From Winogradskyella sp. (GTDB lineage Bacteria; Bacteroidota; Bacteroidia; Flavobacteriales; Flavobacteriaceae), in contig JAOEWO010000005.1 in the NCBI GenBank assembly GCA_028383925.1, positions 1 through 64,000 on the forward strand: DNA of 64,000 nucleotides. The letters are read 5' to 3'. The stretch's first letter is position 1. Every line of letters begins with the position of its first letter. The translations under genes were made by a program, and so were the position numbers. Under the pieces are notes generated by a model that had not been told where the DNA came from, made no database searches, and was given only the letters and a program-made list of their open reading frames with translations. Of this stretch, positions 7,589 to 24,291 are shown piece after piece.

Positions 7589-7617
7589 AAAAGCCCTGAA
7601 GACTAATCAGGGCTTTT
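7589..7617 (-). terminator. rho-independent terminator of the photolyase unit
   Basis: AAAAGCCCTGA pairs with TCAGGGCTTTT around a 7-nt loop. On the minus strand the stem is followed by a run of eight T, and on the plus strand by only four. It therefore best serves the minus-strand unit ending with the photolyase at 7752, about 135 nt upstream. It may also insulate the IS remnant. Confidence 0.75.
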
Positions 7618-7751: not shown

Positions 7752-9056
7752 TTAATTTAATGCAGATTTGTAAGTAGTTAAGCAGCGTTCTCTAGCCATT
7801 TTATGATCTACCATAGGTTGTGGGTACGTTAGTTCTTGAAAATCTGGTGCCCACTGTTTTATATAATCTAAATTTTTATCGAATTTTTGAATTTGTGATG
7901 TTGGGTTAAATATTCTAAAATAAGGAGCAGCGTCAACACCACAACCGGCAACCCACTGCCAATTACCTACATTACTAGACATATCATAATCATGAAGTTT
8001 TTCGGCAAAGTAAGCTTCGCCCCAACGCCAATCTATTAAAAGGTGCTTACATAAAAAACTACCAACTAGCATGCGTACGCGGTTATGCATAAAACCAGTT
8101 TCGTTAAGTTGACGCATACCAGCATCTACTAAAGGATATCCGGTTTCTCCCTTACACCACAGTTTAAATTCAGCTTCATTATTTCGCCATTCAATCCGTT
8201 CGTATTTAGGTTTAAAAGCAGCGTCTTTCGTATGCGGAAAATGCCATAAGATTTGCATAAAAAACTCACGCCAAATCAGCTCTTGCCAAAATATCTCATT
8301 GGTTTCTGCAATTGCTTTTTCAACCATTTTGCGCACACTTACAGATCCAAAACGTAAGTGAGGGCCTAAGCGCGATGTAGAATCTTGTGCAGGGAAATTT
8401 CGAGTCTCTTCGTAGTTTTGTATCACTTTAGGGTTTACATCGTATGCTGTAATAGGTTGACTAGATGTCTTAAATCCTATATCAGTTAAGCTTAAGTTTA
8501 CGGTATTAGTATCTTTAATAAGGTTACCAAAAAGCGACTTTGTATCATAAATTTTAAAGTCTATAGTTTTAAACTTTTCCTTCCAAATACGCATGTAAGG
8601 TGTGTAAACCATGTATGGTTTACCATCCTTTTTTACGACTTCATTTTTTTCAAAAATAACGTGGTCTTTGTAGGTTTTAAATTCTATATTTTTATCTTTT
8701 AAAAATTCTTTTATGGTATTGTCGCGCTCATTAGCATAAGGTTCATAATCATGGTTTGTGAAAACAGAACCTATAGTATGTTCTTTAATTAGTTGTGCAA
8801 AGATTTCTTTCGGTTTACCATAAAACATAGCTATAGAACTACCGTAGATATCGTTAAGCTCTTTACGCATGTGTTGTAGCGTATTATGTATAAAGGTAAC
8901 GCGAGCGTCGTTTTCTGGTAATCGGTCTAGTATGTCTGAGTCGAAAATAAAAATTGGTAACACAGAAGCATCACTTTGCAAAGCTTTATAAAACCCAACG
9001 TTATCGTCTAGTCTTAAGTCGCGCCTAAACCAGAATATGTTTATTTTTTTATCCAT
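7752..9056 (-). CDS. phrB: class I deoxyribodipyrimidine photolyase (CPD repair)
   Basis: 434 residues. Flavoenzyme that uses blue light to split cyclobutane pyrimidine dimers. The N-terminal alpha/beta antenna domain begins INIFWFRRDLRLDDN. The C-terminal FAD domain shows TSRLGPHLRFG, WQELIWREFF, TGYPLVDAGMRQL, FMHNRVRM, DYDMSSNVGNWQWVAG with the Asn next to FAD and the Trp of the electron chain, and FRIFNPTSQ. All class I signatures are intact, so this is the best repair enzyme of the four paralogues here. It is the last gene of its unit, 47 nt after an SRPBCC gene. Confidence 0.93.
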   Translation of the reverse strand: MDKKINIFWFRRDLRLDDNVGFYKALQSDASVLPIFIFDSDILDRLPENDARVTFIHNTLQHMRKELNDIYGSSIAMFYGKPKEIFAQLIKEHTIGSVFTNHDYEPYANERDNTIKEFLKDKNIEFKTYKDHVIFEKNEVVKKDGKPYMVYTPYMRIWKEKFKTIDFKIYDTKSLFGNLIKDTNTVNLSLTDIGFKTSSQPITAYDVNPKVIQNYEETRNFPAQDSTSRLGPHLRFGSVSVRKMVEKAIAETNEIFWQELIWREFFMQILWHFPHTKDAAFKPKYERIEWRNNEAEFKLWCKGETGYPLVDAGMRQLNETGFMHNRVRMLVGSFLCKHLLIDWRWGEAYFAEKLHDYDMSSNVGNWQWVAGCGVDAAPYFRIFNPTSQIQKFDKNLDYIKQWAPDFQELTYPQPMVDHKMARERCLTTYKSALN

Positions 9057-9103: not shown

Positions 9104-9565
9104 TTAAAATTTACCAAAGAGCGCTTCTAGTTGTGTAGTCCTATAATTAAAGATACTCTTTAATTTAGGTGCCACTAATATAGGGTGTACTAGTTGACCC
9201 AATACACCAAAAGGTACTTTGTAGTCAATAATGTCTTCCATTTCTACACCACCTTTAATCTCGTGTATAAAATGCTTATGATGCCATAAAGCATAAGGGC
9301 CGTATAATTGCACATCTACAAAGTACTTTTTGTCTTCGTATTGTGTTATTTCACTAACCCATTTAGTTTTTATTCCGGCTAAAGGAGTAACGTTATATTG
9401 TAGTATCTGGCCTGCATACATTGGTCTATCTGCACCAGAGATAATTGTCATATTCATCTCCGAAGGTGTTAATTTAGATAGATTAGCTGGATTACAAAGA
9501 AACTCCCAAGCCTGATCTAAACCAATAGGTAGTTTTTGCTTTTGATGCAATGTATAAATTTTCAT
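9104..9565 (-). CDS. SRPBCC family protein
   Basis: 153-residue START/Bet v1-like protein. The opening KIYTLHQKQKLPIGLDQAWEFLCNPANLSKLTP is characteristic (strand, helix with W/F and the NPANL turn). Such proteins bind hydrophobic ligands in a cavity. No ligand can be inferred. Two nucleotides separate its start from the tspO stop. Family members are often found in photolyase/cryptochrome neighbourhoods, and the tight spacing suggests co-expression with the photolyase. Confidence 0.75.
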   Translation of the reverse strand: MKIYTLHQKQKLPIGLDQAWEFLCNPANLSKLTPSEMNMTIISGADRPMYAGQILQYNVTPLAGIKTKWVSEITQYEDKKYFVDVQLYGPYALWHHKHFIHEIKGGVEMEDIIDYKVPFGVLGQLVHPILVAPKLKSIFNYRTTQLEALFGKF

Positions 9566-9567: not shown

Positions 9568-10032
9568 TTAATTATGTATTAAAATATAGGCATTAAGTGA
9601 GGTTGCAATAAGTAACCAAACGATGTAAGGCAATAAGAGATATTTACCTTTTTTTAGTCTGTCGTTTCTAAAGGTTATAAATAGGTAACCAATAACCATT
9701 GTAAGTAATATGAGAATTATAAGACCAAATAATGTGAGTTGTTGATTAAAGAATACCCAATTCCAACTTATATTTAATATTACTTGAAAACTATATAATA
9801 ACCAAAGTGTTGTTTTTGCACGCAAGGTAAAAATTTCTGCTAAATACCACGAAAAGCTTAACATTATTAATGTCCAGGCGGCACCAAAAACCCAACCTGG
9901 AGGTGTCCAAGGTGCTTTATCTAAGTTAGTGTACCAAGTCTCTGATACGGCATCACCCATAAAATAATTACCAAGTGCTAAACCACCAAAATTAATAATT
10001 AAGAATAGTGAGAAAAGATAAATCTTTTTCAA
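9568..10032 (-). CDS. tspO: TspO/MBR family tryptophan-rich sensory protein
   Basis: 154 residues with five membrane segments. The TspO signatures are WYTNLDKAPWTPPGWVFGAAWTLIM in the first loop/TM2, the aromatic run SWYLAEI, and NISWNWVFF in TM4. Bacterial TspO binds porphyrins and is linked to light- and oxygen-dependent control and tetrapyrrole photo-oxidation. Its place within a photolyase unit fits a photoprotective role (inference). Confidence 0.9.
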   Translation of the reverse strand: MKKIYLFSLFLIINFGGLALGNYFMGDAVSETWYTNLDKAPWTPPGWVFGAAWTLIMLSFSWYLAEIFTLRAKTTLWLLYSFQVILNISWNWVFFNQQLTLFGLIILILLTMVIGYLFITFRNDRLKKGKYLLLPYIVWLLIATSLNAYILIHN

Positions 10033-10210: not shown

Positions 10211-10750
10211 TTATTTTAAATATGAAGTAATACGAGAATTCATTGGTTTTGTAATAGAGTAGAAGTGGTCTAAAAGTTGGCCATTTTCATCTACCAAATA
10301 TTTCTGAAAATTCCACTTTACAGCAGAATTTTGTTTTCCGTTAATCGCTTTTTTTGTTAACCATTGGTATAGGCTGTGCTGATGTGTACCTTTAACATCT
10401 ACTTTTTCTGTAATTAGGAAAGATACACCATAGTTAACTTCACAAAATTCTTGAATTTCATCTGAGTTACCAGGTTCTTGTTTGCCAAACTGGTTGCAAG
10501 GCACACCAATTACTAACAATTTATCTTTATAGGTGTCTTGTAATTCTTGTAACTCTTTATATTGTGGTGTAAAACCACATTTTGAAGCAACGTTTACAAA
10601 CAAGAGCTTTTTACCTTTAAAGTCGGCTAAATCAATCGGTTTACCTTGTAAGCTGTTAATGGCTAAAGTGTATATAGACTTAGATGCTTTTTTTACAACA
10701 TTTTTATCTGTTGTTGTTAATGTACCTATAAATGCTTTTAACGGATTCAT
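10211..10750 (-). CDS. glutathione peroxidase-family thiol peroxidase
   Basis: 179 residues with a thioredoxin fold. The peroxidatic residue is cysteine in VASKCGFTPQY. The catalytic glutamine lies in CNQFGKQEPG, whose Cys is a possible resolving residue, and the Trp/Asn pair is in VKWNFQKYLV. Cysteine-type bacterial members usually use thioredoxin rather than glutathione. No signal peptide is seen, although there is an N-terminal extension of about 25 residues before the fold (IYTLAINSLQG). It likely detoxifies peroxides produced under light stress (inference from context). It starts 3 nt after the SDR stop. Confidence 0.88.
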   Translation of the reverse strand: MNPLKAFIGTLTTTDKNVVKKASKSIYTLAINSLQGKPIDLADFKGKKLLFVNVASKCGFTPQYKELQELQDTYKDKLLVIGVPCNQFGKQEPGNSDEIQEFCEVNYGVSFLITEKVDVKGTHQHSLYQWLTKKAINGKQNSAVKWNFQKYLVDENGQLLDHFYSITKPMNSRITSYLK

Positions 10751-10753: not shown

Positions 10754-11440
10754 TTAGAGTTTAAAGCTTACAATACCACAGTCCATTTCAAAAATCTGTC
10801 CAGACATTGAAGCTGCTTTATTAGAAATTAAAAAACCTGCCATGTCTGCTACTTCTTCAGGTTGAAGATATTTTTTAAGCGGATGACGCTCGTTCATATT
10901 TTCAATCATTCTGTCGTTACGTAACAATTTAGATGCTAAATCTGTATTTGTAACAGTTGGTGCTATAGCATTAACTCTAATAGTTGGTGCTAATTCTGCA
11001 CCTAAAGATTTTGTTAAACCTTCTACTGCAGCTTTTGAAGCTGCAACACTTGCATGAAACGGCATCCCTAATTTTGCTGCTACTGTACTAAAAAGTAAAA
11101 TAGCTGGTGTTGTTCCGTTTTTTAAAGCTGGAAGATATTTCTGTATTGTTTTAACTGCACCAAGTACATTGATTTCAAAATCATTTTTAAAATCATCTAT
11201 ACTTAGTCTATTTATAGGTTTAAGATTGATGCTTCCAGGACAATATATTAACCCATCTGCAGTATCAAAATCGGGTAATTCATCGTTAATGACATCACAA
11301 TTGTAATGTTTTAAATTGGGGTGTTGCTGTGCTGGCGCTGTTCTACTGATGTTTACAATTTCATCATAAGAAGAAAGCAAAGATGTGACTATTGCATTGC
11401 CAATACCTTTGCTTCCTCCGATTACTATTAATCTTTTCAT
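10754..11440 (-). CDS. SDR family protein lacking the usual catalytic tyrosine
   Basis: 228 residues with a Rossmann fold: the glycine motif GGSKGIG at the N-terminus, CPGS replacing the common NNAG, and the catalytic serine in LLFSTVAA. In the active-site block HASVAASKAAVEG the lysine is present but the residue four before it, normally Tyr, is Val. The C-terminal MSGQIFEMDCG is typical. Either the reaction differs from ordinary SDR chemistry or the protein binds NAD(P) without catalysis. It lies within the light island between a peroxidase and folE. Confidence 0.8.
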   Translation of the reverse strand: MKRLIVIGGSKGIGNAIVTSLLSSYDEIVNISRTAPAQQHPNLKHYNCDVINDELPDFDTADGLIYCPGSINLKPINRLSIDDFKNDFEINVLGAVKTIQKYLPALKNGTTPAILLFSTVAAKLGMPFHASVAASKAAVEGLTKSLGAELAPTIRVNAIAPTVTNTDLASKLLRNDRMIENMNERHPLKKYLQPEEVADMAGFLISNKAASMSGQIFEMDCGIVSFKL

Positions 11441-11680: not shown

Positions 11681-12373
11681 CTAATTGTTTAAATAGTTCT
11701 GTAATTCTGCAATTTTTGCAGAGGTGTTAAACTCACCACCATAATATGTTGTTACAGTTGCAGACGTATCATCTTTAACGCCTCTAGAAGACACACATAA
11801 ATGTTTAGCATCAATAATAACTGCAACATCTTCTGTTTCTAATACTGTTTTTAATTCGTTTGCAATTTGATTTGTTAAACGCTCTTGTACTTGAGGACGT
11901 TTAGCATAATACTGAACTATTCTATTTAATTTTGAAAGTCCAATAACTTTACCAGATGATTTGTAAGCAATATGTGCTTTACCAATAATAGGTACAAAGT
12001 GATGCTCACAATTAGAGTAGAAGGTAATATTTTTTTCTACCAACATTTGGTTATATTGATATTTATTATCAAACAAAGCCACTTTTGGTTTGTTTTTAGG
12101 GTCTAAACCAGAGAATATTTCTTCAATATACATTTTAGCAACACGGTCTGGTGTGCCTTTTAGTGAGTCGTCTGTTAAGTCTAAACCTAGCACATCCATT
12201 ACCTCAGAGAATAGTATTGATATTCGCTTTTTCTTTTCGTCGTTAGACATTTCAAAAGCATTAGGTTTCATTGGTGTTTCTAAATTTGTAAAAAGGTGGT
12301 CGTCACCAATGTCTTCTGTAGAAAAACCATTGAATGCTGCTTGTTTGTTGTTAGAAATTGTTTCTGTTTTCAT
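11681..12373 (-). CDS. folE: GTP cyclohydrolase I
   Basis: 230 residues. Converts GTP to dihydroneopterin triphosphate, the first step of folate and pterin synthesis. Zinc ligands and active-site blocks are clear: FYSNCEHHFVPIIGKAHIAY, GLSKLNRIVQYYAKRPQVQERLT, and HLCVSSRGVKDDTSATVTTYYGG. The N-terminal 40 residues are a variable extension. Being inside a photolyase unit, it may supply methenyltetrahydrofolate, the antenna pigment of many photolyases and Cry-DASH proteins (inference). It could also simply be the housekeeping copy. Confidence 0.93.
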   Translation of the reverse strand: MKTETISNNKQAAFNGFSTEDIGDDHLFTNLETPMKPNAFEMSNDEKKKRISILFSEVMDVLGLDLTDDSLKGTPDRVAKMYIEEIFSGLDPKNKPKVALFDNKYQYNQMLVEKNITFYSNCEHHFVPIIGKAHIAYKSSGKVIGLSKLNRIVQYYAKRPQVQERLTNQIANELKTVLETEDVAVIIDAKHLCVSSRGVKDDTSATVTTYYGGEFNTSAKIAELQNYLNN

Positions 12374-12428: not shown

Positions 12429-12701
12429 TTAACGTTTTGAAATAGAGTTATTTGATATTGATCTTTGTCTAGAGCATTTAAATCTGCCCTCTTCAAAAGT
12501 TCTTTTTTTACTGTGTTTTGTTGCTCTTCCTTGTACTCTGGCGCGCCACAACCTAAAACTTTTAGGCTTTAGCTCACGTCGCATTAAGGTAATAACTTCT
12601 TGTTCTTTTAACCCAAATTGAAATGTTATTGCATCAAAAGGTGTTCTGTCTTCCCATGCCATTTCTATGATGCGGTCTATATGTTTAAGTTCTAAAGTCA
12701 T
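12429..12701 (-). CDS. TIGR03643 family protein (DUF2805)
   Basis: 90 residues. The family core is IDRIIEMAWEDRTPFDAI then FGLKEQEVITLMRRELKPKSFRLWRARVQGR, followed by a basic tail (TKHSKKRTFEEGRFKCSRQRS). The fold looks like a small helix-turn-helix. Its function is unknown. The gene overlaps the upstream gene by 17 nt, which suggests translational coupling. This family is common next to cryptochrome and photolyase genes. Confidence 0.85.
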   Translation of the reverse strand: MTLELKHIDRIIEMAWEDRTPFDAITFQFGLKEQEVITLMRRELKPKSFRLWRARVQGRATKHSKKRTFEEGRFKCSRQRSISNNSISKR

Positions 12702-13128
12702 AATCTTGAGGCATTGTAAATTGTGTATCGTATTTTACTTTTTCGTCAAGTAATTTGTCAAAGAATTTTTTATTTTCTTTAAATGTTTTACTATTTCTAA
12801 AGTGAACAAAACGACCTTGGGCGTGTATACTAGATCCGTTTGTTTTGTAAATTACGAGTTGATAATAAGGAATAACCCATGTAAAGTTTTTTAACCCTTT
12901 GTTTATCATTACCAAAACGCCTTTTGGTCGTAATTCTATATTTGCATAATTGACATCTGATACCACGTTCATCATTGACTTCATATTCGGACTTACATCA
13001 TCAACAATCATGCGTTTAGATCCTACGCCACCAAGTTTCAATTTCTGTACCAAACTAAAAGAGCTGCCAATTAAGTCGGCAATAATTTTTTTGTGTTCTG
13101 AGTTGTGATGTGTAGTGTTAAGTATCAT
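12685..13128 (-). CDS. conserved-looking hypothetical protein, first gene of the downstream light unit
   Basis: 147 residues with no recognised family. The middle shows alternating hydrophobic strands (YANIELRPKGVLVMINKG, FTWVIPYYQLVIYKT) and a histidine-rich N-terminus (THHNSEHKK), suggesting a small alpha/beta domain with no signal or membrane segment. It directly follows the operator and -7 box at 13136-13178. The ATG lies only about 8 nt past the box, so the leader is very short. As lead gene of the unit ending in phrB, it may be tied to light control (inference). Confidence 0.65.
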   Translation of the reverse strand: MILNTTHHNSEHKKIIADLIGSSFSLVQKLKLGGVGSKRMIVDDVSPNMKSMMNVVSDVNYANIELRPKGVLVMINKGLKNFTWVIPYYQLVIYKTNGSSIHAQGRFVHFRNSKTFKENKKFFDKLLDEKVKYDTQFTMPQDYDFRT

Positions 13129-13135
13129 AATTATT

Positions 13136-13178
13136 CAAAGTTACAAAATGTTTAACCTTTAGTATATATAGTTAAACA
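13136..13178 (-). promoter_or_regulatory. promoter with 8-bp inverted-repeat operator (light unit 2)
   Basis: On the minus strand an exact Bacteroidota -7 box TAACTTTG (13136-13143) is preceded by an inverted repeat, TGTTTAAC / 14-nt AT-rich spacer / GTTAAACA (13149-13178). A further TTAACA lies beyond it. No TTTG is found at the -33 position, which the repeat covers. The same layout occurs at 21862-21903. It looks like a binding site for a dimeric regulator, probably an activator, identity unknown. Confidence 0.65.
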
Positions 13179-13230
13179 AAAATTAACACATTATTAGGAT
13201 TGTAAGAAAATGACTCCCAAAAATTACATA

Positions 13231-14721
13231 TTATTCATTTCTCAACAGACGGTTTCTTTCGCTAATAGTATGTCGCTTTAATATTCTAAAACTTTCACGT
13301 ACTACTTCAGTATCGTTTCTCATATTCCATAAAATATCACTAGCGCGTCTTCTGTTTATCTTAATATCTACGATAGGTAGCGGATAATCTTCACCTAGTT
13401 TAAAGTTGTAAAATGTTTGTTCCATTTCGGTCATTAGATAGGGCTCATGTATAAACGGTGTATCTAATTCTGCTAATTCGGGCACCCATTTTTTTATAAA
13501 TACAGCATCTGGGTCGTGTTTTAAACTATTTGATGTAGGATTATATATTCTTAGTGTATTAATACCTGTCTCACCCGCGGCCATTTGTAATTGTGGAAAA
13601 TGTATACCAGGTTCAAAATCTAAAAATTGTTGCGATAAATGCCGTGTGGCCTCCTGCCATGGTTGCCAAAGTATGTGTGTAAAAAAAGATGCCAACATGG
13701 CACGCATCCTAAAATTAACGTAACCTGTCTCAAGAAGGCATCGCATACTTGCATCTACTAACGGAAAGCCTGTTTTACCTTTAAACCAAGCATTTTGGTA
13801 GTCTTCAGAAATACTCTTTTTTAGTTTATGGTAGCCTTTATTTACACTTGCTTCTTCCATGGTATGCTCCATTTCAAACTTTTGAATAAAATGTGCTTGC
13901 CAACGCAACCGCGATAAAAAGCCCGAAATATGACGTTTATCTTTACTAACCGCTTTAATCGCTTGCCCTTTTTGAAATACTTGTCTTATAGATATATTAC
14001 CCCAAGCTACATATGGTGAAATTCTGCTGCAACTACTTCGTGATGCTTCTGGTTTAGAGATGTTATACATGTACGCTTCATGTCTGCTATTAAAAAACGA
14101 ATCTGCATATTTCCAACCTACAGTACTTCCCCCTTTTTGAAACGGTGCTTCTTTTGGTGTTTCTAAACAGGTAATGCTAAATACTTTTTCTAACCTCTCA
14201 ATAACTTCATTAGAGACGAGTTGGTTGTCTGCTGGGTTAAATATTTCAAGAGGTTTATTCATATAAACTTCCCAATTTTCAAACCAATCTTTTCTGCTTG
14301 TTAAACCACGCTCTACACCATTATTAGTAGTTTCTACCCACTTTATAAAATTATTTTTACAATAGCGTTTAAATTCTTTATCTCTTTTATACGTTAGAAG
14401 CAGACCTGTTTCTACATGTGAGTAAATGGTATTTATTTTATAAAATTCTTGTAACTGATTAAAGGCACTCGTAATATCGCTTGTTACTGTTAATACTTTA
14501 GAGTTGTAAGGTTTTAGTTGTGTGTTAAGGTCTCTTAAGGCTTCTTTTATAAAGTTAAAGTGGCGCTGGCTATAATGATTATCGTTAAGTAATGCGTGTT
14601 CAAAAACATAAAATAAGATAACACGTCTGCCAGTTTTTAAGGCAGTGGTAATCGCTTCATTATCTTGTAATCTTAGATCTCTTTTTAACCAAACTACATT
14701 TATATGTTCTCTATCTGCCAT
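13231..14721 (-). CDS. photolyase/cryptochrome family protein with atypical FAD pocket
   Basis: 496 residues. Standard N-terminal antenna fold (VNVVWLKRDLRLQDNEAI-like start) and FAD domain blocks (SRISPYVAWG, FLSRLRWQAHFIQKFE, KTGFPLVDASMRCLLETG). In the loop near the flavin N5, class I photolyases have D-x-S-S-N-x-GNWQW. Here it reads DFEPGIHFPQLQMAAGETG, then INTLRIYNPT. The usual Asn and the proximal Trp are thus replaced, by my alignment with His and Leu. It belongs to a distinct branch of the superfamily, and repair activity cannot be assumed. It sits 1 nt downstream of the next photolyase-like gene. Confidence 0.85.
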   Translation of the reverse strand: MADREHINVVWLKRDLRLQDNEAITTALKTGRRVILFYVFEHALLNDNHYSQRHFNFIKEALRDLNTQLKPYNSKVLTVTSDITSAFNQLQEFYKINTIYSHVETGLLLTYKRDKEFKRYCKNNFIKWVETTNNGVERGLTSRKDWFENWEVYMNKPLEIFNPADNQLVSNEVIERLEKVFSITCLETPKEAPFQKGGSTVGWKYADSFFNSRHEAYMYNISKPEASRSSCSRISPYVAWGNISIRQVFQKGQAIKAVSKDKRHISGFLSRLRWQAHFIQKFEMEHTMEEASVNKGYHKLKKSISEDYQNAWFKGKTGFPLVDASMRCLLETGYVNFRMRAMLASFFTHILWQPWQEATRHLSQQFLDFEPGIHFPQLQMAAGETGINTLRIYNPTSNSLKHDPDAVFIKKWVPELAELDTPFIHEPYLMTEMEQTFYNFKLGEDYPLPIVDIKINRRRASDILWNMRNDTEVVRESFRILKRHTISERNRLLRNE

Positions 14722-14722: not shown

Positions 14723-16198
14723 CTAAAGTTGCTTTAAAAAGTGTTCTGCATTTTTAAAATGCGTTTCTTTTATTTCTGGCTTCATTTTATCAAATGTTCT
14801 AATAAGCATTCCTAAACGAGGGTTGCTCAAAAAGAAATCACGGTGTTTGTCCATAAACGTCCAAAACAGACCATCCCAAGTGGGCTGCCAATCTCCTTTT
14901 TTGTAATCGCTCATTTTTTTTATATAATTACTACCACTTATGTAAGGTTTTGTAGACATTAAACCACCATCGGCATATAAACTCATACCGTAAACATTGG
15001 GTACCATCACCCAATCGTAGGCATCAATAAACAATTCCATAAACCATTGGTAAACTTCATCAGGATCAAACTCGCACAATACCATAAAATTTCCCAGTAT
15101 CATTAGTCGTTCTATATGGTGGGCATAGCCTGTTTTTAAAACTTTTTTAATGACATCGTCTATAGGTTCAATTCCCGTTGAGCCATCATAAAATGAAGCA
15201 GGGATTTTTCGTTTAAAGTTCCAAAAGTTTTTAGTGCGTTCTTCGGTGCCTTTTACTTCATAAACACCTCTTATAAATTCGCGCCACCCTAATATTTGGC
15301 GCAAAAAGCCTTCGGTAGAATTTAATGGAATATCATTTTTTTTAGCATATGCTATAGCCTCATTAATAACATGTAGTGGCTCTAGTAATCCTATATTAAT
15401 TAATGGTGATAAAATGCTGTGGTTTAAATAACTTTCTTGGCGTACAATAGCATCTTCATACACACCAAACTCATGAAAACGAACTTCTAAAAATTGCTGA
15501 AACCAATCATTTGCCGTTTCAAAACTAATAGGGTAGAGGGCAAAATCAGTTAATTCTCCATAGTGGTTTTTAAAATATGTATTTACATATGTTTCTGCTT
15601 CTTTGTGAAACGTAGTTTTATCAGGAAACTGAATTGGTGGCGGTGTTTTATCTTTTGGGTATTTTTTTCTGTTTTCAGAATCGTATGTTAATTTACCACC
15701 TTCGGGTTGGTCACCAGTCATTAAAATATTTCTATCTTGACGTTGGTTTTTGTAAAATGACGTTTGAAAAAATTTCTTTTTTGAGGGCTTAAAGAAGGCG
15801 CTTAATTCATCTTTTGTGTTTATAAATAAGGGATTATTATACCACTTAATTTCTATAGTATCAGAAACAGAATTGATATGTTTTTGAAGCCAATTATCTG
15901 TTGGGTCTATAATATGAAAGGTATTAAAACCGTCTTCTATTAATTTTGGAATGAGTTGTCTAACATCGCATAAATCGTTTATGGCTTCTATATAATGAAC
16001 TGTTTTTCCTTTTGATTGTAAATAGGCTTGGTAACACTTCATCGTGGCACGATGAAATGCTATTTTTTGTTTGTGAAATTTATAGTGTTTAAAAAATAAG
16101 AATTCTTCAATTAAATAAATAGAACCTTCGATATCTAAAAGTTCTGAATTTTTAAATAATTGGTGTGGAAAAATAAGTAGGGCCTCTTTGTTGTTCAA
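14723..16198 (-). CDS. FeS-BCP/PhrB-type (6-4) photolyase-related protein lacking most cluster cysteines
   Basis: 491 residues. The start LLIFPHQLF and the blocks FLRQILGWREFIRGVY, GYAHHIERLMILGNF, FIDAYDWVMVPNVYGMSLYADGG and TKPYISGSNYIKKMSDY define the prokaryotic (6-4) photolyase/FeS-BCP branch. That branch carries a [4Fe-4S] cluster on four cysteines. Only one of the four positions is a Cys here (MVLCEFDPD), and the segment after MSDY reads KKGDWQPTWDG without cysteine. The cluster is probably absent. The antenna in characterised relatives is dimethyl-ribityllumazine. It could still be a (6-4) photolyase or a photoreceptor. Confidence 0.85.
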   Translation of the reverse strand: MNNKEALLIFPHQLFKNSELLDIEGSIYLIEEFLFFKHYKFHKQKIAFHRATMKCYQAYLQSKGKTVHYIEAINDLCDVRQLIPKLIEDGFNTFHIIDPTDNWLQKHINSVSDTIEIKWYNNPLFINTKDELSAFFKPSKKKFFQTSFYKNQRQDRNILMTGDQPEGGKLTYDSENRKKYPKDKTPPPIQFPDKTTFHKEAETYVNTYFKNHYGELTDFALYPISFETANDWFQQFLEVRFHEFGVYEDAIVRQESYLNHSILSPLINIGLLEPLHVINEAIAYAKKNDIPLNSTEGFLRQILGWREFIRGVYEVKGTEERTKNFWNFKRKIPASFYDGSTGIEPIDDVIKKVLKTGYAHHIERLMILGNFMVLCEFDPDEVYQWFMELFIDAYDWVMVPNVYGMSLYADGGLMSTKPYISGSNYIKKMSDYKKGDWQPTWDGLFWTFMDKHRDFFLSNPRLGMLIRTFDKMKPEIKETHFKNAEHFLKQL

Positions 16199-16236: not shown

Positions 16237-17544
16237 TTAAAACAAACTAGGTTGTAACCAAAGTTTTCTGAATTTACCGTTTTCATCGTAGCGTTCTGCT
16301 TGTAATTGTACATTAAACTTACGATCTCTCGGATCATTACCAACACCAGCAACATACATCCAATTACCATAATTGCTATGTACGTCATAATCTATAAGAA
16401 GCGATTCAAAGTAAGCTGCACCAATGCGCCAATCTAGCTTTAGCTCTTTAGCGAAATACGAAGCTACATTTTGTCGACCTCTATTACTCATCCACCCAGT
16501 TTGTTTTAATTCTAACATATTAGCGTTTACAAAGTCGGAATTTGTTTCACCATTAATCCACTTTTTAATCTGATTTTTATTGGTAGACCATTCGTAATCT
16601 TTATGTAAAATTCCATCTAGTTTAAAAATTTGGCTACCGTATTTTAACGATACATATTTAAAATAATCGCGCCAAATTAATTCAAAAATGAGCCAATAAG
16701 TAGATTCGTTTTTATAGTGCTCTTTTTCAAATTGTTTAACTTTCCAATAAATGGTTTTTGCAGAGATTGACCCATTAGCTAACCATGATGAAAATTTTGA
16801 ACTGTAGTCCGTACCAACTAAACCATTTCTTGTTTTTTTATAGAATCCGAGTTTTTTGGTATTAAAAAAATAATCATCTAAACGTTTTAGTGCTTCTGTT
16901 TCTCCACCTTTAAAAGGGAATGCAGAATGCACGTGTGTTTTAAAATCAGCTATACCTAAGTCGTGTAAAGTCGGAATTCTAGTGTCATTTTCAATACGGT
17001 TAGATTCTGGTAACTTTTTAATAACAGCTGCTTCACGAATAGCCACGTACTTTTCTAATTTCTTTCTAAACACTGTAAATACTTGTGGTATTTTTTCTAT
17101 TTCGAAATTTATATCTTCAGGATGATACAGAAGTTGGTTATACGATTTATGAAAACTAACGTGCTCTAATTTAGCTTTAATGGCATTTTCTGTAGCCATT
17201 TCATCTTTTGTCCAATCGTTTTGAAGGTAAACATCTGTAACCTTATATTTTGCGCAGATTTCTGGAATAATAGCTTCTGGCTTAGTGTTAAATACTAATA
17301 GATCTACATTTAAAAGTAGAAGTTGTCTTTTTAAATCTTCAATAGTTTCTAATAAAAATTTAGCACGATATTTTTCTGTTATTTTAAAACCGTATTTATT
17401 AGTTTCAAAATATTTAGGATCAAAACAATAGATGCCAATTACCTTATTTTTAGTTGCGCAGGCTTCTGCTAAAGCATTGTTATCAATGGTTCTTAAATCG
17501 TATCTAAACCAAACTAAACTTGTGTTGTTTTGTTTTTCTTGCAT
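16237..17544 (-). CDS. cryptochrome DASH
   Basis: 435 residues. DASH signatures: [17 protein letters not shown] at the N-terminus, [84 protein letters not shown]. The last block (GVGNDPR) is diagnostic. Cry-DASH proteins repair CPDs in single-stranded DNA and may signal light, and they use MTHF as antenna, which links to folE in the same island. It is 38 nt upstream of the FeS-BCP-type gene and overlaps DUF2256 by 31 nt. Confidence 0.93.
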
Positions 17545-17781: not shown

Positions 17782-19203
17782 TTATTTTTTTTCTACTAAG
17801 GCGTTAATCATCCCGTTAAAAACAAAGGCATGAAACGGTAATACCGAATACCAATACAATCTGCCCCAAACACCTTTTGGTCTAAAAACAGCGCGTTGGT
17901 ATAATTTATCTTTTACTATTTTAAATTCTAGCCAAGCCTCCCCAGGTAATTTCATTTCAGCAAAAAGCAGTAATCTTTTTTCGTCTTTATCTGCCAATAG
18001 TACACGCCAAAAATCTAAAGGGTCGCCAGCTTCTAAATACGTGTCGTGTGTACGACCACGTCTTAAACCTACACCACCAAAGAGTTTATCCATGTAACCT
18101 CTGAGTTTCCATAGTCTATTAAAACTATACCATCCATTACGACCACCAATACTCCAAATTCGGTCTATGGTGTAGTTTTCATCTTTTATTGTTCTGTATC
18201 TTACATCTTTAAAACAGCCAAATTGTGGTAATTCTATATGTTTAGATAATTGGTCTCTAAAGACACCACTACTAACGGCATCTTTCCAACTAGAAATTAC
18301 AGAGTTTTGTTCAATTTTTTGAAAAGCTAAGTTTACCGCAGTTTTATAAGTCATTGGTGTAATAGCAATATGGTTATTAATATCGCTAGGTCTTCCTATT
18401 ACTTCCACCTTCATACTATCTACTAATGCAGAGGCGAGCTGAAATGATGTAGAGGTTACAAAATAGAGCCAATAGGATGATAATTTAGGACTTAAAACTG
18501 GTAACGTGAGTATGTGTCTTTTTAGGCCTCTTACTTCTGCAAATTGCAAAAGCATTTGCTTGTAAGTTAAAACTTCTGGTCCAAAAATATCAAACGCTTT
18601 ATTGTACAATTCCTCTTTGTAAAGTGCGCCACATAAGTAGGTGAGTACGTCTCTAATACCTAAAGGTTGCGTTTTTGTATTTAGCCACCTAGGTGTTACC
18701 ATAATAGGAAGCTTTTCTACGATATCTCTAATAATCTCAAATGAGGCACTACCACTACCAACAATAATACCAGCTCTAAATGTGGTTAATGCATAAGCTT
18801 CAGATTTTAAAGTATGTTCTACTTGTAGTCGAGACTTTAGGTGTTTAGATAACGATTTGTCATTAACAATACCGCTTAAATAAATAACATGTTGACATTG
18901 AGTTTTAGAAACTAGTGCTTTAAAGTTAGCAGCACAATCTTCTTCTAAAGTTTCAAAATTACTAGAAGATGTTGCCATAGAATGTATTAAATAATACGCG
19001 GCATCTATATCTTTAGGTATGTTAGCTAGCTTGGGCTTTAAAAAGTCTATTTTAATGAATGTACACCTAGGATGTTCTTCTATTTCATCTGGTATTCTGC
19101 TCATATCGCGTACACAACACACTAACTCATGGTTGTCTTCGAGAAGTTGAAGTGCTAGTCGTTTAGCTATATAGCCTGTGGTACCTGTTATGAGAATTTT
19201 CAT
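17782..19203 (-). CDS. NAD(P)-binding protein with C-terminal DUF2867
   Basis: 473 residues. The N-terminal half is an atypical SDR/NmrA-like Rossmann fold (ITGTTGYIAKRLALQLL, then HVIYLSGIV and FRAGIIVGSGSASFE). The C-terminal 170 residues match DUF2867 (RYRTIKDENYTIDRIWSIGGRNGWYSF, GDPLDFWRVLLADK, GRLYWYSVLPFHAFVFNGM). The substrate is unknown. It lies 8 nt after the flavin reductase stop, in the upstream light unit. Confidence 0.82.
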   Translation of the reverse strand: MKILITGTTGYIAKRLALQLLEDNHELVCCVRDMSRIPDEIEEHPRCTFIKIDFLKPKLANIPKDIDAAYYLIHSMATSSSNFETLEEDCAANFKALVSKTQCQHVIYLSGIVNDKSLSKHLKSRLQVEHTLKSEAYALTTFRAGIIVGSGSASFEIIRDIVEKLPIMVTPRWLNTKTQPLGIRDVLTYLCGALYKEELYNKAFDIFGPEVLTYKQMLLQFAEVRGLKRHILTLPVLSPKLSSYWLYFVTSTSFQLASALVDSMKVEVIGRPSDINNHIAITPMTYKTAVNLAFQKIEQNSVISSWKDAVSSGVFRDQLSKHIELPQFGCFKDVRYRTIKDENYTIDRIWSIGGRNGWYSFNRLWKLRGYMDKLFGGVGLRRGRTHDTYLEAGDPLDFWRVLLADKDEKRLLLFAEMKLPGEAWLEFKIVKDKLYQRAVFRPKGVWGRLYWYSVLPFHAFVFNGMINALVEKK

Positions 19204-19211: not shown

Positions 19212-19841
19212 TTATTTTGAAAATTCTGGTTTTGGACGTTGGTAGTCTAATCTTGTTTTTAAAGTTGGTATTGTATAACCATCTAACCCATTAATACTAG
19301 CTATTTTTCCTTTTGCAAGATTAATAAAACCATCCTTTTCTATTAAATGATCATCTACAAAAAGATTTACTATTTTACCAATAACTAATATGGTATTGTT
19401 AGCCGCTATTGGGTATTCTTCAACAAATTCCATTTCCATTTGTATAGGCGAATCTTTAACAAAAGGTACGTCTATATTTGGTTTGTATTCTTCATTTAAC
19501 GATGTAACATTAAACTCAGAAACCGTCTCATCGTATTTGGCAGACGTATGGTGTGCATCTTCAAGAATATCTTCGTAAATATGATTTAAAGTATAAGACC
19601 CACTTTTTTTAAGGTTATGATAGGTGTTGCGCATTACTGTAGTGGGCCTTAAAAAAAAGCCCAATAAAGCAGGATTAGAGCCTATATGGGTTACCGAACT
19701 AAATACAGCAACATTACTAATACCATCTTCACTTTTTGTACCAATAAGATTTGCAGACTTATAACCAGAGCAACTATTTATTAAGTTGATACGGTACAGA
19801 TGGTGCATTTTATCGATGTCTTCAAAACTAAATTTAGCCAT
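19212..19841 (-). CDS. flavin reductase-like FMN-binding split-barrel protein
   Basis: 209 residues. The split-barrel opening INSCSGYKSANLIGTKSEDGISNVAVFSS and PALLGFFLRPTTVMRNTYHNL are typical of the flavin-reductase-like family. The stop-to-start distance to the UbiB-like gene is nil (adjacent codons). It may bind FMN and reduce flavins. A link to flavoprotein photoreceptors is plausible but inferred. Confidence 0.82.
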   Translation of the reverse strand: MAKFSFEDIDKMHHLYRINLINSCSGYKSANLIGTKSEDGISNVAVFSSVTHIGSNPALLGFFLRPTTVMRNTYHNLKKSGSYTLNHIYEDILEDAHHTSAKYDETVSEFNVTSLNEEYKPNIDVPFVKDSPIQMEMEFVEEYPIAANNTILVIGKIVNLFVDDHLIEKDGFINLAKGKIASINGLDGYTIPTLKTRLDYQRPKPEFSK

Positions 19842-21152
19842 TTACAGGTTTTTAAAGTTATTGATTTTTACATCTTGTGCTTTTAAATCGAACATAAGGT
19901 TGTAAAGGCCAAAGAAAGTTCTATTAATATATATAAAGTGTGTAGACCCTCGGTTACCATTCATGTTTCTTAACTTAGTGCTTTTAGAATAACGTTGTCC
20001 CATTTCTGAGATTTTATTAAAAAAGTCTGGATTAGAAAAATCAAATTCTTCCACATGAAACGGTTTTGTAAACAGACTTAACAACTCATGAAACATGTTG
20101 CTGAAGAATTTAATTTCTTCTGGCGAATCATCTGTTCTTAATATTTCTAATTCGTATAGTTTGTCTGTAAAAAGTTGCTTGTTACTAATGCATTTAGGAT
20201 CTGCTAATTCAAAATATGGTGTGTAGAAATCTAAAGGGATCGTTTTCATACACCCAAAGTCTAAAGCAATTAAGTCGCCATCTGGTGATATTAAAAAATT
20301 ACCAGGATGCGGATCTGCATGTACCTTTTTTAGTTTATGAATTTGAAACATATAAAAGTCCCAAAGTGCTTGACCTAGCTTATTAGAAACCGTTCTGTCT
20401 GTGTTATGTGCTACAAATTCTGAAAGGTGTTCACCAGTCATATAATCCATAGTTATAATACGCTCAGATGAAAATTTCTCGTAATAATTAGGGAATTTTA
20501 AATTAGGAATATGATTACAAGCTTCAACAACAGCCTTGCTTTGTGAAATCTCTAATATGTAGTTGGTCTCTTCTGTAAGTTTATTTTCTACTTCTTTAAA
20601 ATACTTATCCGAGTCGTTGCCTCTTATATTAAACATCTTAATAGCTATGGGTTTAACCAAGGCTAAATCTGATGAGATACTCTCCGCAACTCCAGGATAT
20701 TGGATTTTCACAGCAAATTTCTTCCCATTCTTTTCTGCAATATGGACTTGGCCAATACTGGCAGCGTTAACTGAAGTTGCGTTGAAGGTATCAAAAATAT
20801 CTTCGGGATGTTTTCCAAAATATTTCTTAAATGTTTTTATAACTAATGGTGGTGATAAAGGCGGAACAGAGAATTGAGATAAAGAAAATTTCTCCACATA
20901 GGCTTGTGGTAAAATACTTTTTTCCATACTTAGCATTTGCGCAACCTTTAGGGCACTACCTTTTAGCGTTTTTAGACTATTGTATATGTCTTCTGCATTG
21001 TTTTGGTTTAGACGTTCTTTGGCATCTTCCTTAGATTTTACCATCTTGTCACCATAATATTTTAAATAATTTACACCAACTTTAGCACCAGTGGTTACTA
21101 ATTTTGATGCTCTAGATATTTTAGAAATTGGAATACTGTCTATTGTTTTCAT
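19842..21152 (-). CDS. ABC1/AarF (UbiB-like) atypical kinase
   Basis: 436 residues. The family signatures are KGSALKVAQMLS (the KxGQ motif is altered to KVAQ), ASIGQVHIAEKNGKKFAVKIQYPGV with the nucleotide-binding lysine, EETNYILE, the catalytic-like loop VHADPHPGNFLISPDG and the metal-binding ALDFG. UbiB/ABC1 proteins support isoprenoid quinone synthesis or lipid handling. No C-terminal membrane pair is obvious. It lies 28 nt after the TetR-family gene, which probably controls the unit. Confidence 0.88.
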   Translation of the reverse strand: MKTIDSIPISKISRASKLVTTGAKVGVNYLKYYGDKMVKSKEDAKERLNQNNAEDIYNSLKTLKGSALKVAQMLSMEKSILPQAYVEKFSLSQFSVPPLSPPLVIKTFKKYFGKHPEDIFDTFNATSVNAASIGQVHIAEKNGKKFAVKIQYPGVAESISSDLALVKPIAIKMFNIRGNDSDKYFKEVENKLTEETNYILEISQSKAVVEACNHIPNLKFPNYYEKFSSERIITMDYMTGEHLSEFVAHNTDRTVSNKLGQALWDFYMFQIHKLKKVHADPHPGNFLISPDGDLIALDFGCMKTIPLDFYTPYFELADPKCISNKQLFTDKLYELEILRTDDSPEEIKFFSNMFHELLSLFTKPFHVEEFDFSNPDFFNKISEMGQRYSKSTKLRNMNGNRGSTHFIYINRTFFGLYNLMFDLKAQDVKINNFKNL

Positions 21153-21180: not shown

Positions 21181-21837
21181 TTAATTAGACATCATTTTTT
21201 CTTTGTATAAAAACTTACCAAAGTCAATAATGCTTTTTAGGGGTGTGGTGTCTATTAAATCGAAACTCGCTCTTACCGATTTTTCAATAAAAATATCTGT
21301 TTTTTCAAATGAAGGTGACGTGTCATCTAACCAAAATTTCATAGTTACTAATAACTGAAACCAAGCCGATTCTTTTAAGCCTCTATTTTGGAGTTTAACT
21401 AATTGTTCTTGTTTTAAATCTATTGTTTTAATATCTAAATGCTCAATGTAGTTGGTAAACCTCTTTTTTAAATGCGCTAAGGATTTTAGAGATTTAAGCT
21501 GATTTTTATTTTCACCTAATAAATGAACAACATAACTTCTGTTGGCTGTAAGAATTTCGAAAAAGGTGAAATAAAAACTTAATAATTTATCTTTAGGATG
21601 AAAAGTTAAATACTCTTCGCTTTTTTCTAAAACAGTATGTGCATTATCAAAAAATATTTTAAATATTGATTGCTCTAAAGCTTCAAATGTACCAAAGAAT
21701 TCATAAAATGTTTGTTCTTCAAATTTGTTGTCTTTTGCAAAAGCGTAAACTGATTTTGGTTTGTGATTATGTGTTAGTACATAATCCATATAAAAACCTA
21801 TAATGTCTGATTGTGTAATTGATTTCTTGTTAGCCAT
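21181..21837 (-). CDS. TetR-like transcriptional regulator
   Basis: 218 residues. The N-terminus has a TetR-like three-helix arrangement (SDIIGFYMDYVLTHNHKPKSVYAFAKDNKFEEQTFYEFFG). The Y/F-rich recognition helix resembles TetR family members and the basic residues are few. The C-terminal helical domain is typical of ligand-binding halves. It is the first gene after the operator at 21862-21903, so it may autoregulate. It could also be a co-opted TetR-fold protein with weak DNA binding. Confidence 0.7.
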   Translation of the reverse strand: MANKKSITQSDIIGFYMDYVLTHNHKPKSVYAFAKDNKFEEQTFYEFFGTFEALEQSIFKIFFDNAHTVLEKSEEYLTFHPKDKLLSFYFTFFEILTANRSYVVHLLGENKNQLKSLKSLAHLKKRFTNYIEHLDIKTIDLKQEQLVKLQNRGLKESAWFQLLVTMKFWLDDTSPSFEKTDIFIEKSVRASFDLIDTTPLKSIIDFGKFLYKEKMMSN

Positions 21838-21861: not shown

Positions 21862-21903
21862 TAAAGATACGAATGTTTAACTATTTTAATATATGCTTAA
21901 ACA
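21862..21903 (-). promoter_or_regulatory. promoter with inverted-repeat operator (light unit 1)
   Basis: The minus-strand -7-like box TATCTTTA (21862-21869) lies 4 nt from an inverted repeat, TGTTTAAC / 14-nt AT spacer / CTTAAACA (21874-21903), followed by TTTAACA. Spacing and sequence match the operator at 13136-13178, so both halves of the island appear to answer to one regulator. The regulator may be the TetR encoded next door or a light-sensing protein elsewhere (inference). Confidence 0.6.
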
Positions 21904-21967
21904 AAATTTAACAAGAATATAGGATACCAATTACGATAGTATAATTCAGTATGGTATTTTTAATTTA

Positions 21968-22612
21968 TTATTGAATGGTTTTATGGCAAAAAACAGCAAG
22001 TATAGCACCAATTATAGGTGCGGTTAGGTAAAGCCAAAGGTGTTCTAAATTACCAGAAACAAATGCAGGTGCCAAAGATCTTGCCGGATTCATTGATGCT
22101 TTTGTCATTGGACCAGCAAACATAGCTTCTAGTAAAATAACACCACCAACTGCTATTGCCGCCATAGAGCCTATTTCTTTGCTGCCAATAGAGACATTTA
22201 AGATAACAAGCATTAAGAAAAAAGTTAAAAATAATTCAAATATAAAAGCTTTATATGGTGCAAATCCTTCTGCAGGATATGTATGTCCAAAACTACTGCT
22301 TTCAGGAAATAGTAGCCATAAAACCAAAATAGCCAAAAACGCACCCATGGTTTGCGCTGTAAGATATAATGGTACATCTTTCCATTTAAATTTTTTAGCC
22401 ACAGCAAAACCAATGGTTACAGCTGGGTTTAGGTGTGCACCAGATATGTGGCCAAAAGCGTAAATCATTGCCATTACTACAAGTCCCCAGGTTATAGCAA
22501 CACCAACATGTGTTATGGCTCCACCTGTTATTTCGTTAACCGTCATGGCACCACAGCCACAAAACACCATTATAAATGTGCCTAATAATTCTGCAAACGC
22601 CTTTTTACTCAT
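21968..22612 (-). CDS. aqpS: aquaglyceroporin of the arsenic operon (AqpS-like)
   Basis: 214 residues with six membrane segments and the two NPA boxes of the MIP family (SGAHLNPAVT and ASMNPARSLAP), starting KKAFAELLGTF. It follows arsC with a 41-nt gap in an arsR-led operon that contains no ArsB or Acr3. In Sinorhizobium meliloti, AqpS replaces the pump and lets arsenite leave down its gradient after ArsC reduction. I transfer that role by context. A general glycerol/water channel is the alternative. Confidence 0.82.
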   Translation of the reverse strand: MSKKAFAELLGTFIMVFCGCGAMTVNEITGGAITHVGVAITWGLVVMAMIYAFGHISGAHLNPAVTIGFAVAKKFKWKDVPLYLTAQTMGAFLAILVLWLLFPESSSFGHTYPAEGFAPYKAFIFELFLTFFLMLVILNVSIGSKEIGSMAAIAVGGVILLEAMFAGPMTKASMNPARSLAPAFVSGNLEHLWLYLTAPIIGAILAVFCHKTIQ

Positions 22613-22653
22613 TCTGTTTTTATTAGTTTGTTTAGTGATGTTTTAGCGTTTAA

Positions 22654-23268
22654 TTAAGCTTTAATCTGAGAAAATACATAGTTTAATTCTGTTGCAATTT
22701 GCAAACTACGTTCGGTGTATTTTTCTAGTTGTTGTGGTGTATTATCAAATGCTTTTGGGTCTTTGTAAGTAATTGGTATACGCTTTTCGGCACCAATTAT
22801 AAAAGGGCATCCCTTGTCTGCACTAGAGCAAGTAAGTATAGCTGCAAAATTTGAAGTTGGGTTAAAATCGGCATCAAAAGTTTTAGAAAAACCAATAATG
22901 GGATGGTTGTTTTCAGAATACTTTATAGCATAAACCGGATTACTTTCATTAGAAAGCTTTTCAATTTTAAATCCAGAATTTTCTAAAGTTTCTACAGCAA
23001 CAGGAAATAATGCAGTAGCCTCAGTACCGCCAGAGTAGCAGGTTACATTTTTAAGGTTATAATATTGTGCAATTGTTTGAGCCCAAACTTGCGATAAATG
23101 ACTTCTACGCGAATTGTGCGTACAAATAAAATTAAGGTTTACAGCTCTATTATGAGTCACTTTTTCTTGTACATAATTTATTAAGTGTTGTAATAGGTCT
23201 AAACGTTCTGGTGCTAAAGCTACTTTTGGTAATGCTTCTATTTGTGCAACTATTTTTGGGTATAACAT
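22654..23268 (-). CDS. arsC: arsenate reductase, low-molecular-weight phosphatase fold
   Basis: 204 residues. The phosphatase loop CTHNSRRS begins at Cys49 after an extension of about 40 residues. The redox pair CSSADKGC matches the C-x6-C spacing (Cys82/Cys89) of thioredoxin-coupled ArsC, and DPKAFDNTP carries the catalytic aspartate. It reduces arsenate to arsenite. The gene lies between DUF6428 and the aquaporin, all in one direction. Confidence 0.88.
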   Translation of the reverse strand: MLYPKIVAQIEALPKVALAPERLDLLQHLINYVQEKVTHNRAVNLNFICTHNSRRSHLSQVWAQTIAQYYNLKNVTCYSGGTEATALFPVAVETLENSGFKIEKLSNESNPVYAIKYSENNHPIIGFSKTFDADFNPTSNFAAILTCSSADKGCPFIIGAEKRIPITYKDPKAFDNTPQQLEKYTERSLQIATELNYVFSQIKA

Positions 23269-23293
23269 GTTTTTATTTTAGGGTATTAATAGC

Positions 23294-23764
23294 TTAACAG
23301 CAGCCAGAATTTGGTGTGCAGCCAGAGGTGGTTTTTTGAATCTCAGATATTTTAACTTTTGGTTTTTCAGTTGGTAAGCCACAAGACGACAATGCTAAAC
23401 ATGCGGTTTGTTTAGGTATTAAAAGAAAGTCTTTGCCGTTAAACTCTAAGTCGTATTTACCAATGGTTTGGCTTTGGTATTCTACTTCAATATCTAGATT
23501 ACCAATTTTTAATATTTTTTCTGAGAGTTCTATGATATCTAATAATTTTTCGGGATGCAGTCTGTGGTCATAATCATTAGCTTCCCATAATTGAAAATTA
23601 GCAACTTCTTCGTGTCTTACTGTACCACCGCAGTCAATAAAATCTTTAGATATTTTACCAACTTCTGTTACATGAAAATGGTTAGGTACTAAAGAGCCAT
23701 CTGGTAACTGAAAAGCGATAGTCTTTATTTCTGTGAGTATGGTTTTAATTTCTTTTAATTTCAT
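23294..23764 (-). CDS. DUF6428 family protein of ars operons
   Basis: 156 residues. Core motifs are VPNHFHVTEVG, FIDCGGTVR, FQLWEANDYDHRL and VEYQSQTIGKYDLEF. The C-terminus carries several cysteines (ACLALSSCG and the final GCTPNSGCC), which could bind arsenite or other thiophilic metals (inference). The function is unknown. The family is typically found in Bacteroidota ars operons, as here between arsR and arsC. Confidence 0.82.
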   Translation of the reverse strand: MKLKEIKTILTEIKTIAFQLPDGSLVPNHFHVTEVGKISKDFIDCGGTVRHEEVANFQLWEANDYDHRLHPEKLLDIIELSEKILKIGNLDIEVEYQSQTIGKYDLEFNGKDFLLIPKQTACLALSSCGLPTEKPKVKISEIQKTTSGCTPNSGCC

Positions 23765-23773
23765 AATATATAA

Positions 23774-24106
23774 TTAACAACAGTTATTTTCTTCATTAAT
23801 GTCTTGGTTAATAAATTCTGCAATTACAGACTTCATTTGTGTCCAACTATTTTGGTTTATACAATAACAAATACTCGTACCTTCTATGTTACCTTTTATT
23901 AACCCTAAGTTTTTTAATTCTTTTAAGTGTTGCGAAATAGTGGGTTGCGCCAATCCTATTTCATCAACCAGATCACCACAAATACAAGATTTTATTTTAA
24001 ATAAATGTTGAAGAATTGCCACTCTTGCTGGGTGGCCAAAAGCTTTTGCGATATTAGATATCTGATTTTGTTGGTCTGTAAATATTTCGCTTTTTGTTAA
24101 CCCCAT
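23774..24106 (-). CDS. arsR: ArsR family repressor
   Basis: Winged helix-turn-helix repressor. I start at the ATG at 24106 (MGLTKSEIFTDQQ) rather than at a possible upstream start at 24160, because the longer form would run across the palindrome at 24122-24133 and adds a non-family hydrophobic stretch. The arsenite-sensing motif is SCICGDL, like the CVC of classical ArsR, followed by the recognition helix QPTISQHLKELK. It ends in EENNCC, two extra cysteines. It heads the operon arsR-DUF6428-arsC-aqpS. Confidence 0.9.
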   Translation of the reverse strand: MGLTKSEIFTDQQNQISNIAKAFGHPARVAILQHLFKIKSCICGDLVDEIGLAQPTISQHLKELKNLGLIKGNIEGTSICYCINQNSWTQMKSVIAEFINQDINEENNCC

Positions 24107-24121
24107 GCTTATTGTATTATT

Positions 24122-24133
24122 ATATTGCAATAT
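24122..24133. promoter_or_regulatory. putative ArsR operator
   Basis: ATATTGCAATAT is a perfect 12-bp palindrome, 16 nt upstream of the arsR ATG and within its promoter. ArsR proteins bind such AT-rich dyads. Assignment rests on position and symmetry only. Confidence 0.45.
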
Positions 24134-24291
24134 TACGATTAATATATTTAATACAGTCAAACGTTTTAGATTATGTCAGAAAACACAAGAAATAAATAGT
24201 AAAACCTTTTAAGTATTTGTTAACATATAAGGCTTAAGGTAAGTTGTAAATTTACGACACATTAATAAACAACCATTTAACACAATACAAA

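Follow-up and report, generated by a model that had tools for sequence, protein, structure and literature searches.

An inverted-repeat operator before light-related genes of Flavobacteriaceae and a candidate CarH/LitR-like MerR repressor

An inverted repeat that precedes two light-related operons of Winogradskyella sp. is, judged by its conservation in sequence, a real operator used across the family Flavobacteriaceae, and very probably the binding site of a CarH/LitR-like MerR protein that would repress a light regulon. We present here the operator, its targets, its place in promoters, its co-occurrence with the MerR gene, and matched changes of operator and recognition helix, all as displayed by the genomes compared.

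The window, meaning the whole 64,000-nt stretch of DNA that was analyzed, contains two copies of the exact motif TGTTTAAC-N14-(G/C)TTAAACA and no others, and a trinucleotide Markov model produced 0 exact sites in 150 simulated windows. Operator B (TGTTTAAC-N14-GTTAAACA, 13149 to 13178, minus strand) stands before the H147-DUF2805-folE...photolyase operon, 5 nt from a −7 box TAACTTTG at 13143 to 13136 (minus strand). Operator A (TGTTTAAG-N14-GTTAAACA, 21874 to 21903, minus strand) stands before the TetR-ABC1...photolyase operon, 4 nt from a −7 box TATCTTTA at 21869 to 21862 (minus strand). The flavobacterial −7 consensus is given as TAnnTTTG in the available text of PMC3587595, and the operon A box differs from it in the final base, a G in the consensus. 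Both promoters lack TTTG at the −33 spacing, as determined by eye. These results agree with the preliminary description of this DNA, which had reported the paired operators at 13136 to 13178 and 21862 to 21903 with −7 boxes 4 to 5 nt away, the missing TTTG, and no further copy in the window, the last of which holds for exact matches. With three mismatches allowed, the window contains 7 copies versus 5.9 expected; this is chance level, which leaves the exact form as the sole informative one in a single window, and the mismatched copies were not interpreted.

An additional TTAACA half-site (plus strand) had also been described. It is present 10 nt beyond the distal arm of both window operators, reading TGTTAA on the minus strand at 13183 to 13188 (operator B) and lying at 21908 to 21913 on the same strand for operator A, but most relatives' sites do not share it: TGTTAA stands at this distance in 4 of 23 TetR and 3 of 12 H147 sites among the matches listed. 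As a general part of the operator this minority feature was therefore rejected. A spacing of 11 bp to the third half-site, expected from CarH repeats, was likewise set aside, the distance in the window being 10 nt.

Operon A spans 21837 to 13231 and operon B 13128 to 7752, both on the minus strand; from gene spacing, each would form one transcript. Operon A begins with a TetR-type regulator (TetR_C_23, 21181 to 21837) and continues with an ABC1-type kinase (19842 to 21152), a flavin reductase-like protein (19212 to 19841), an NAD-binding/DUF2867 protein (17782 to 19203), a DASH cryptochrome (16237 to 17544; TIGR02765, over the cut-off), a photolyase-related protein (DPRP, 14723 to 16198), and a cryptochrome/photolyase-family protein (13231 to 14721). 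Operon B encodes H147, a conserved protein whose start is conserved in relatives (12685 to 13128), a DUF2805/TIGR03643 protein (12429 to 12701), the GTP cyclohydrolase I FolE (11681 to 12373), a short-chain dehydrogenase (10754 to 11440), a glutathione peroxidase-like protein (10211 to 10750), a TspO/MBR protein (9568 to 10032), a 153-aa protein without a Pfam match, provisionally labeled SRPBCC (9104 to 9565), and a DNA photolyase (7752 to 9056). A terminator-like hairpin of 11 pairs with a T-run follows operon B (7589 to 7617, minus strand); the region contains 10 such sites versus 6.6 expected. H147 matched no Pfam or NCBIfam family, and its confidently modeled fold (pLDDT, 89) gave weak matches, mostly to PH/PTB-like domains (best E value, 0.045). 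It is 86 to 88% identical (tblastn) to proteins of Winogradskyella tangerina and W. flava (L332 and L340), which points to a Winogradskyella-like source genome. Since just 7 nt separate the end of the operon B −7 box from the conserved start codon of H147 (13126 to 13143), the mRNA of this operon may be leaderless or nearly so. The crtI-like genes of relatives begin directly after the operator, and their transcripts may be leaderless too. Directly upstream of operator A is a likely arsenic operon (21968 to 24160, minus strand) encoding an ArsR-type regulator, DUF6428, an LMWPc-type protein, and an aquaporin-type MIP protein; it is linked to the light unit by position only.

Among 299 genomes of the same family, the exact motif was found in 118 and a reversed control pattern in 3. 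We read 82 sites of other genomes among the matches listed (30 returned loci and 52 fetched). Random placement, which the preliminary description named as evidence against a light operator, was not observed: 71 of these 82 exact listed sites lie within 250 nt before light-type genes, namely TetR (23), crtI-like (22), H147 (12), and fasciclin (10) genes, with single listed sites before FolE, a DASH cryptochrome, the 153-aa protein, and a photolyase. The name crtI-like is our own assignment, Pfam giving amino oxidase/NAD_binding_8. The remaining 11 listed sites comprise one between a proteorhodopsin gene and a divergent Blh-type gene (L209), two before a short gene and a DUF2452-type gene (assigned by Pfam in L195 and by resemblance in L211), one before a Porph_ging gene, two before a surface-type protein (likewise by Pfam in L206 and by resemblance in L201), one before an ALO oxidase, one before a DoxX_2 gene, two before a 74-aa protein, and one without an assigned downstream gene. 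The predicted copies near carotenoid, photolyase, and rhodopsin genes were thus found, and conservation before the same genes in relatives supports the idea of one operator shared by both light units.

A second scan, made on named genomes with both arms plus TTTTGTA, gave at least 118 stretches, of which 80 were read. They hold 81 sites, 69 of which precede TetR (38), H147 (23), the 153-aa protein (7), or photolyase (1) genes; at least 16 of the 81 had been read before, so the two sets are not independent. The titles of 79 of the 80 listed stretches carry genus names that we place in the Flavobacteriaceae, or the names Flavobacteriaceae, Flavobacteriales, Bacteroidia, or Bacteroidetes. The remaining stretch comes from a MAG titled Algicola, the name of a genus in the Gammaproteobacteria. 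A short gene starting with MFGLFKK or alike was repeatedly observed behind the operator (L195, L211, L289, L291, L293, L298, L318, L320, and L350; visible only as MFGL in L291). A DUF2452-type gene follows it in L195 and L211, the latter being the same place as L298, and the two genes are likely an unrecognized light-regulated pair.

The best candidate for binding the operator is a MerR protein about 300 aa long that carries a B12-binding_2 domain and is often encoded before a crtI-like gene. It was detected in 240 of the 299 genomes, and TetR in 197. Nearly all motif-bearing genomes have this MerR (115 of 118); the three that lack it (the source genome, G079, and G271) are 76 to 83% complete and lack crtI as well, by a query that gave a match in 5 of 5 complete genomes. 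In near-complete genomes (n = 248), the motif is present in 106 of 218 with MerR versus 0 of 30 without it (p ~1e-8, shared ancestry ignored). Sixty TetR upstream regions, hand-picked among the matches listed, were fetched from 57 MerR-bearing and 3 MerR-less genomes. An operator with at least 13 of 16 matches and an N14 spacer, within 300 nt before TetR, was found in 52 of the 57 versus 0 of the 3; three further MerR-bearing genomes of the 57 have a TetR operator with a 15-bp spacer, and none was found before TetR in G014 and G007, where both MerR and TetR are present. The MerR-less genome G297 keeps one right arm beside the TetR −7 box. In the main type of locus, where the MerR gene precedes the crtI-like gene, an operator with at least 13 of 16 matches lies between them in 20 of 40 loci. 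The exact motif is missing from 125 of the 240 MerR-bearing genomes; imperfect copies would explain many of these, on the basis of 57 genomes and of sites before TetR only.

Two candidate binders had been proposed for this repeat, the adjacent TetR-family protein (21181 to 21837) and a MerR/CarH-type regulator. If TetR bound the operator, it would regulate both units, including its own. Its gene does stand directly behind operator A, and 100 of the 118 motif genomes have TetR. The operator is not confined to such genomes, however, being present in 18 of the 118 that have no TetR, 15 of which are at least 90% complete. It is also missing before TetR in all three MerR-less genomes that keep this gene, and its arms are 22 bp apart, which is unusual for a TetR dimer. 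We therefore consider TetR binding highly improbable, and the adjacent TetR is probably a target. The MerR regulator is the likely binder, on account of its co-occurrence with the motif and a matched change of its DNA-reading helix and the operator, a co-change that TetR binding leaves unexplained.

The main-type MerR has the recognition helix HTIRIWE[KR]RY in all 39 readable loci of 40. A divergent MerR is present in 21 genomes, and in 17 of these the helix is HTLRKWE[ST]RY (K-type). TetR operators of K-type genomes are changed on both arms (TGTCTAA/TTAGACA) in G038, G261, and G040, the last with N15, and G066 and G230 carry TGTCTAA on the left arm only; in K-type G014 the TetR operator was not found. 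The pattern TGTCTAAY-N14-RTTAGACA occurs in 9 of the 299 genomes, which are eight K-type genomes and G135, and all nine have a TLRKWE-type MerR. G135 had been scored as main-type and has two MerR matches, HTLRVWEKRY in the first copy and PTLRKWEERY in the second; the operator predicted a K-type protein in G135 before the second copy was read as one. Where helices were read, the exact variant operator is present in 9 of 19 genomes with a K-type protein versus 0 of 54 without one (p ~1e-6, shared ancestry ignored; the second MerR copy of G166 was unreadable), and the main motif in 0 of 17 K-only genomes. The matched pairs are thus I-type with the TGTTTAAC operator and K-type with the TGTCTAAC operator, a natural specificity switch for the CarH/LitR group from I to K in the helix and T to C in the operator. 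Non-K and K-type paralogues were observed together in G135 (L247/L251) and G212 (L245/L252); two MerR paralogues in one genome would allow two separable light regulons.

The position of the operator relative to the −7 box depends on the promoter. Among the matches listed, the first base of the box is operator position 36 in 20 of 23 TetR and 12 of 12 H147 sites, as it is in operon B, whereas in 21 of 22 crtI-like and 7 of 10 fasciclin sites it is position 16, inside the operator. At the start region of merR itself, TTGTTTA lies upstream in 33 of 40 loci and is overlapped by the −7 box in 28 of 40, and the other arm, (A/G/T)TGAACA, forms the start codon region in 33 of 40; TTGTTTA was found in 6 of 400 coding-sequence control windows. 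Because the operator precedes, covers, or follows the −7 box depending on the promoter, the arrangement favors repression in the dark over activation, that is, a predicted steric repression with autoregulation. Activation from the −33 region, as raised in the preliminary description and as practiced by classic MerR proteins, would account for the missing TTTG in both window promoters and for the fixed distance from operator end to −7 box in TetR and H147 promoters. A classic MerR activator, however, has its site at one fixed place between −35/−33 and −10/−7. Here, the same operator encloses the −7 box at crtI-like and fasciclin genes among the matches listed; at merR, there is overlap between the box and the left arm, with the start codon region serving as the right arm. 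No single fixed geometry accommodates these three arrangements, and an activating MerR is accordingly improbable, with a mixed activator/repressor role possible.

The nearest solved sequences to the repressor candidate are 3whp and CarH 5c8d. Pfam reported MerR_1 and B12-binding_2 but not B12-binding in both proteins scanned (L009 and L023). The published CarH signature consists of Wx9EH, ExHxxG, SxV/T, and GG (PMC8156234, available text). Wx9EH was found in 66 of 67 MerR proteins read (missing in L157; 2 of 69 loci were unreadable) and ExHxxG in 67 of 67. The x41-SxV/T-x22-27-GG part is mostly not matched: Sx(V/T/L/I) was found around the position expected for it in 5 of 39 main, 1 of 21 divergent, and 0 of 7 two-copy MerR proteins, and strict GG in 1, 4, and 0 of these, respectively. 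Since SxV/T and GG are mostly unmatched and Pfam did not report B12-binding, the use of B12, as far as it can be read from the proteins, is not certain, and we describe this MerR as CarH-like in its action without classifying it as CarH.

A MerR repressor that works without B12, fed by another photoreceptor such as the DASH cryptochrome or by another signal, like CarA and class II LitR, is an unlikely alternative. The mostly missing SxV/T and GG fit it, and operon A encodes a cryptochrome. In the accessible parts of PMC9758184, class II LitR is thought not to bind B12, has a LOV protein as partner in P. mendocina, and controls phrB, folE, and cryB in P. putida. Against this stand ExHxxG, kept in every MerR read, and Wx9EH, which caps adenosylcobalamin, is absent in CarA according to the text available of PMC8156234, and is all but universal here.

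The comparison with known systems draws on the available parts of the papers cited. Like CarH of Thermus thermophilus and Bacillus megaterium, the flavobacterial protein has a MerR domain and a cobalamin cap with Wx9EH and ExHxxG (PMC9304148, PMC8156234), the half-site TAAACA matches the TnnACA pattern of CarH repeats described so far (PMC9304148), and the operator overlaps promoter elements and is linked to carotenoid genes (PMC9304148, PMC8156234). It differs from CarH in mostly lacking SxV/T and GG (PMC8156234) and in its wider predicted regulon, with photolyases, rhodopsin, and fasciclin (PMC9304148, PMC8156234). Known CarH operators consist of three to four tandem 11-bp direct repeats (nnnnTnnACAn; PMC9304148), whereas here TnnACA is present in two inverted arms about two turns apart with a nearly fixed 14-bp spacer, 14 being the best spacer, alone or tied, in 52 of 57 TetR promoters. 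Some myxobacterial CarH operators have one or two clear repeats plus degenerate ones (PMC9304148, PMC8156234). Because CarH operators are plastic and the Myxococcus xanthus CarA/CarH operator has inverted repeats (PMC9304148), the layout found here is a variant and not a new principle. M. xanthus CarA resembles the present system in its inverted repeats near the promoter and its repression of crt, and its operator is also used by M. xanthus CarH (PMC9304148, PMC8156234). CarA differs in lacking Wx9EH (PMC8156234), and its operator combines two inverted repeats in a different arrangement that only near relatives conserve (PMC9304148, PMC8156234). Class II LitR of Pseudomonas shares a light regulon with photolyase, folE, and a cryptochrome-like gene but has just the four-helix bundle left of its B12 domains (PMC9758184), whereas the flavobacterial MerR retains ExHxxG of the second domain. 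MliR of Bizionia was also considered; the available text of PMC9478572 describes it as an iron-homeostasis regulator.

Rhodopsin matches were found in 72 of the 299 genomes. Of the 30 rhodopsin loci returned, 17 have an operator with at least 13 of 16 matches in the 250 nt upstream and 13 do not; the shuffled rate is 0.9%. The source genome is among the 17, with an operator between its proteorhodopsin and Blh-like genes (L268, G000:C25) that reads TGTTGAAC-N14-ATTCAACA, altered at mirrored positions, with TAGATTTG inside. At up to two mismatches in this genome, the reversed control gave 9 and 9 loose matches versus 11 and 7 for the pattern; the control being as frequent as the pattern, only sites with zero or one mismatch were followed. 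One-mismatch copies lie before a fasciclin gene (L003) and a Porph_ging gene (L004, G000:C41:6154). Either could be chance; L003 is backed by 10 exact fasciclin sites of relatives among the matches listed, and L004 by one (L212). Porph_ging-family proteins thus adjoin a one-mismatch copy in the source genome and an exact copy elsewhere.

Neither the crtI-linked MerR nor crtI was found in the source assembly, which is 83% complete, and its sole MerR_1 match is a 111-aa frame. Proteorhodopsin and the Blh-like gene need carotenoid. Because the operators are intact, and because G157, a genome of the same genus, carries MerR next to crtI as well as an operator before TetR, we infer that the absence reflects an assembly gap and that the organism has MerR.

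Taken as a mechanism, these features suggest the following. In the dark, MerR, probably with adenosylcobalamin bound, would sit on both inverted arms about two helical turns apart and block RNA polymerase at the flavobacterial promoter. Light would split the cofactor and MerR would let go of the operator, a step suggested by analogy with its CarH relatives. Release would permit transcription of photolyases, cryptochromes, folE, TspO, glutathione peroxidase, TetR-ABC1, carotenoid genes, and fasciclin proteins and, in many genomes, proteorhodopsin/Blh. Physical binding, repression, and dependence on light and B12 are what we infer for this protein from the comparison.

Light-related gene sets are common in flavobacteria, and the literature found, in the parts available, establishes no regulator for them. 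One paper raises, as speculation, the possibility that a gene next to crtB has a role like that of CarA/LitR (PMC7064467, available text). A search, with most subscription journals outside its scope, found in the accessible texts no description of this operator or of a CarH regulon in Flavobacteriaceae; either may already be published elsewhere. The operator adds a layout to the CarH/LitR group, defines a regulon, points to a candidate sensor, and can serve as a DNA probe, and light induction of proteorhodopsin, carotenoids, and photolyases becomes directly testable. At about even chances, the master light switch of Flavobacteriaceae is a photoreceptor repressor of the B12 type that acts through an inverted-repeat operator, governing DNA repair and carotenoids together and, in many members, proteorhodopsin phototrophy as well. 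Many of these bacteria may have to import vitamin B12, and, if the switch is of this kind, a vitamin would act as the gate to light-driven growth in the sea.
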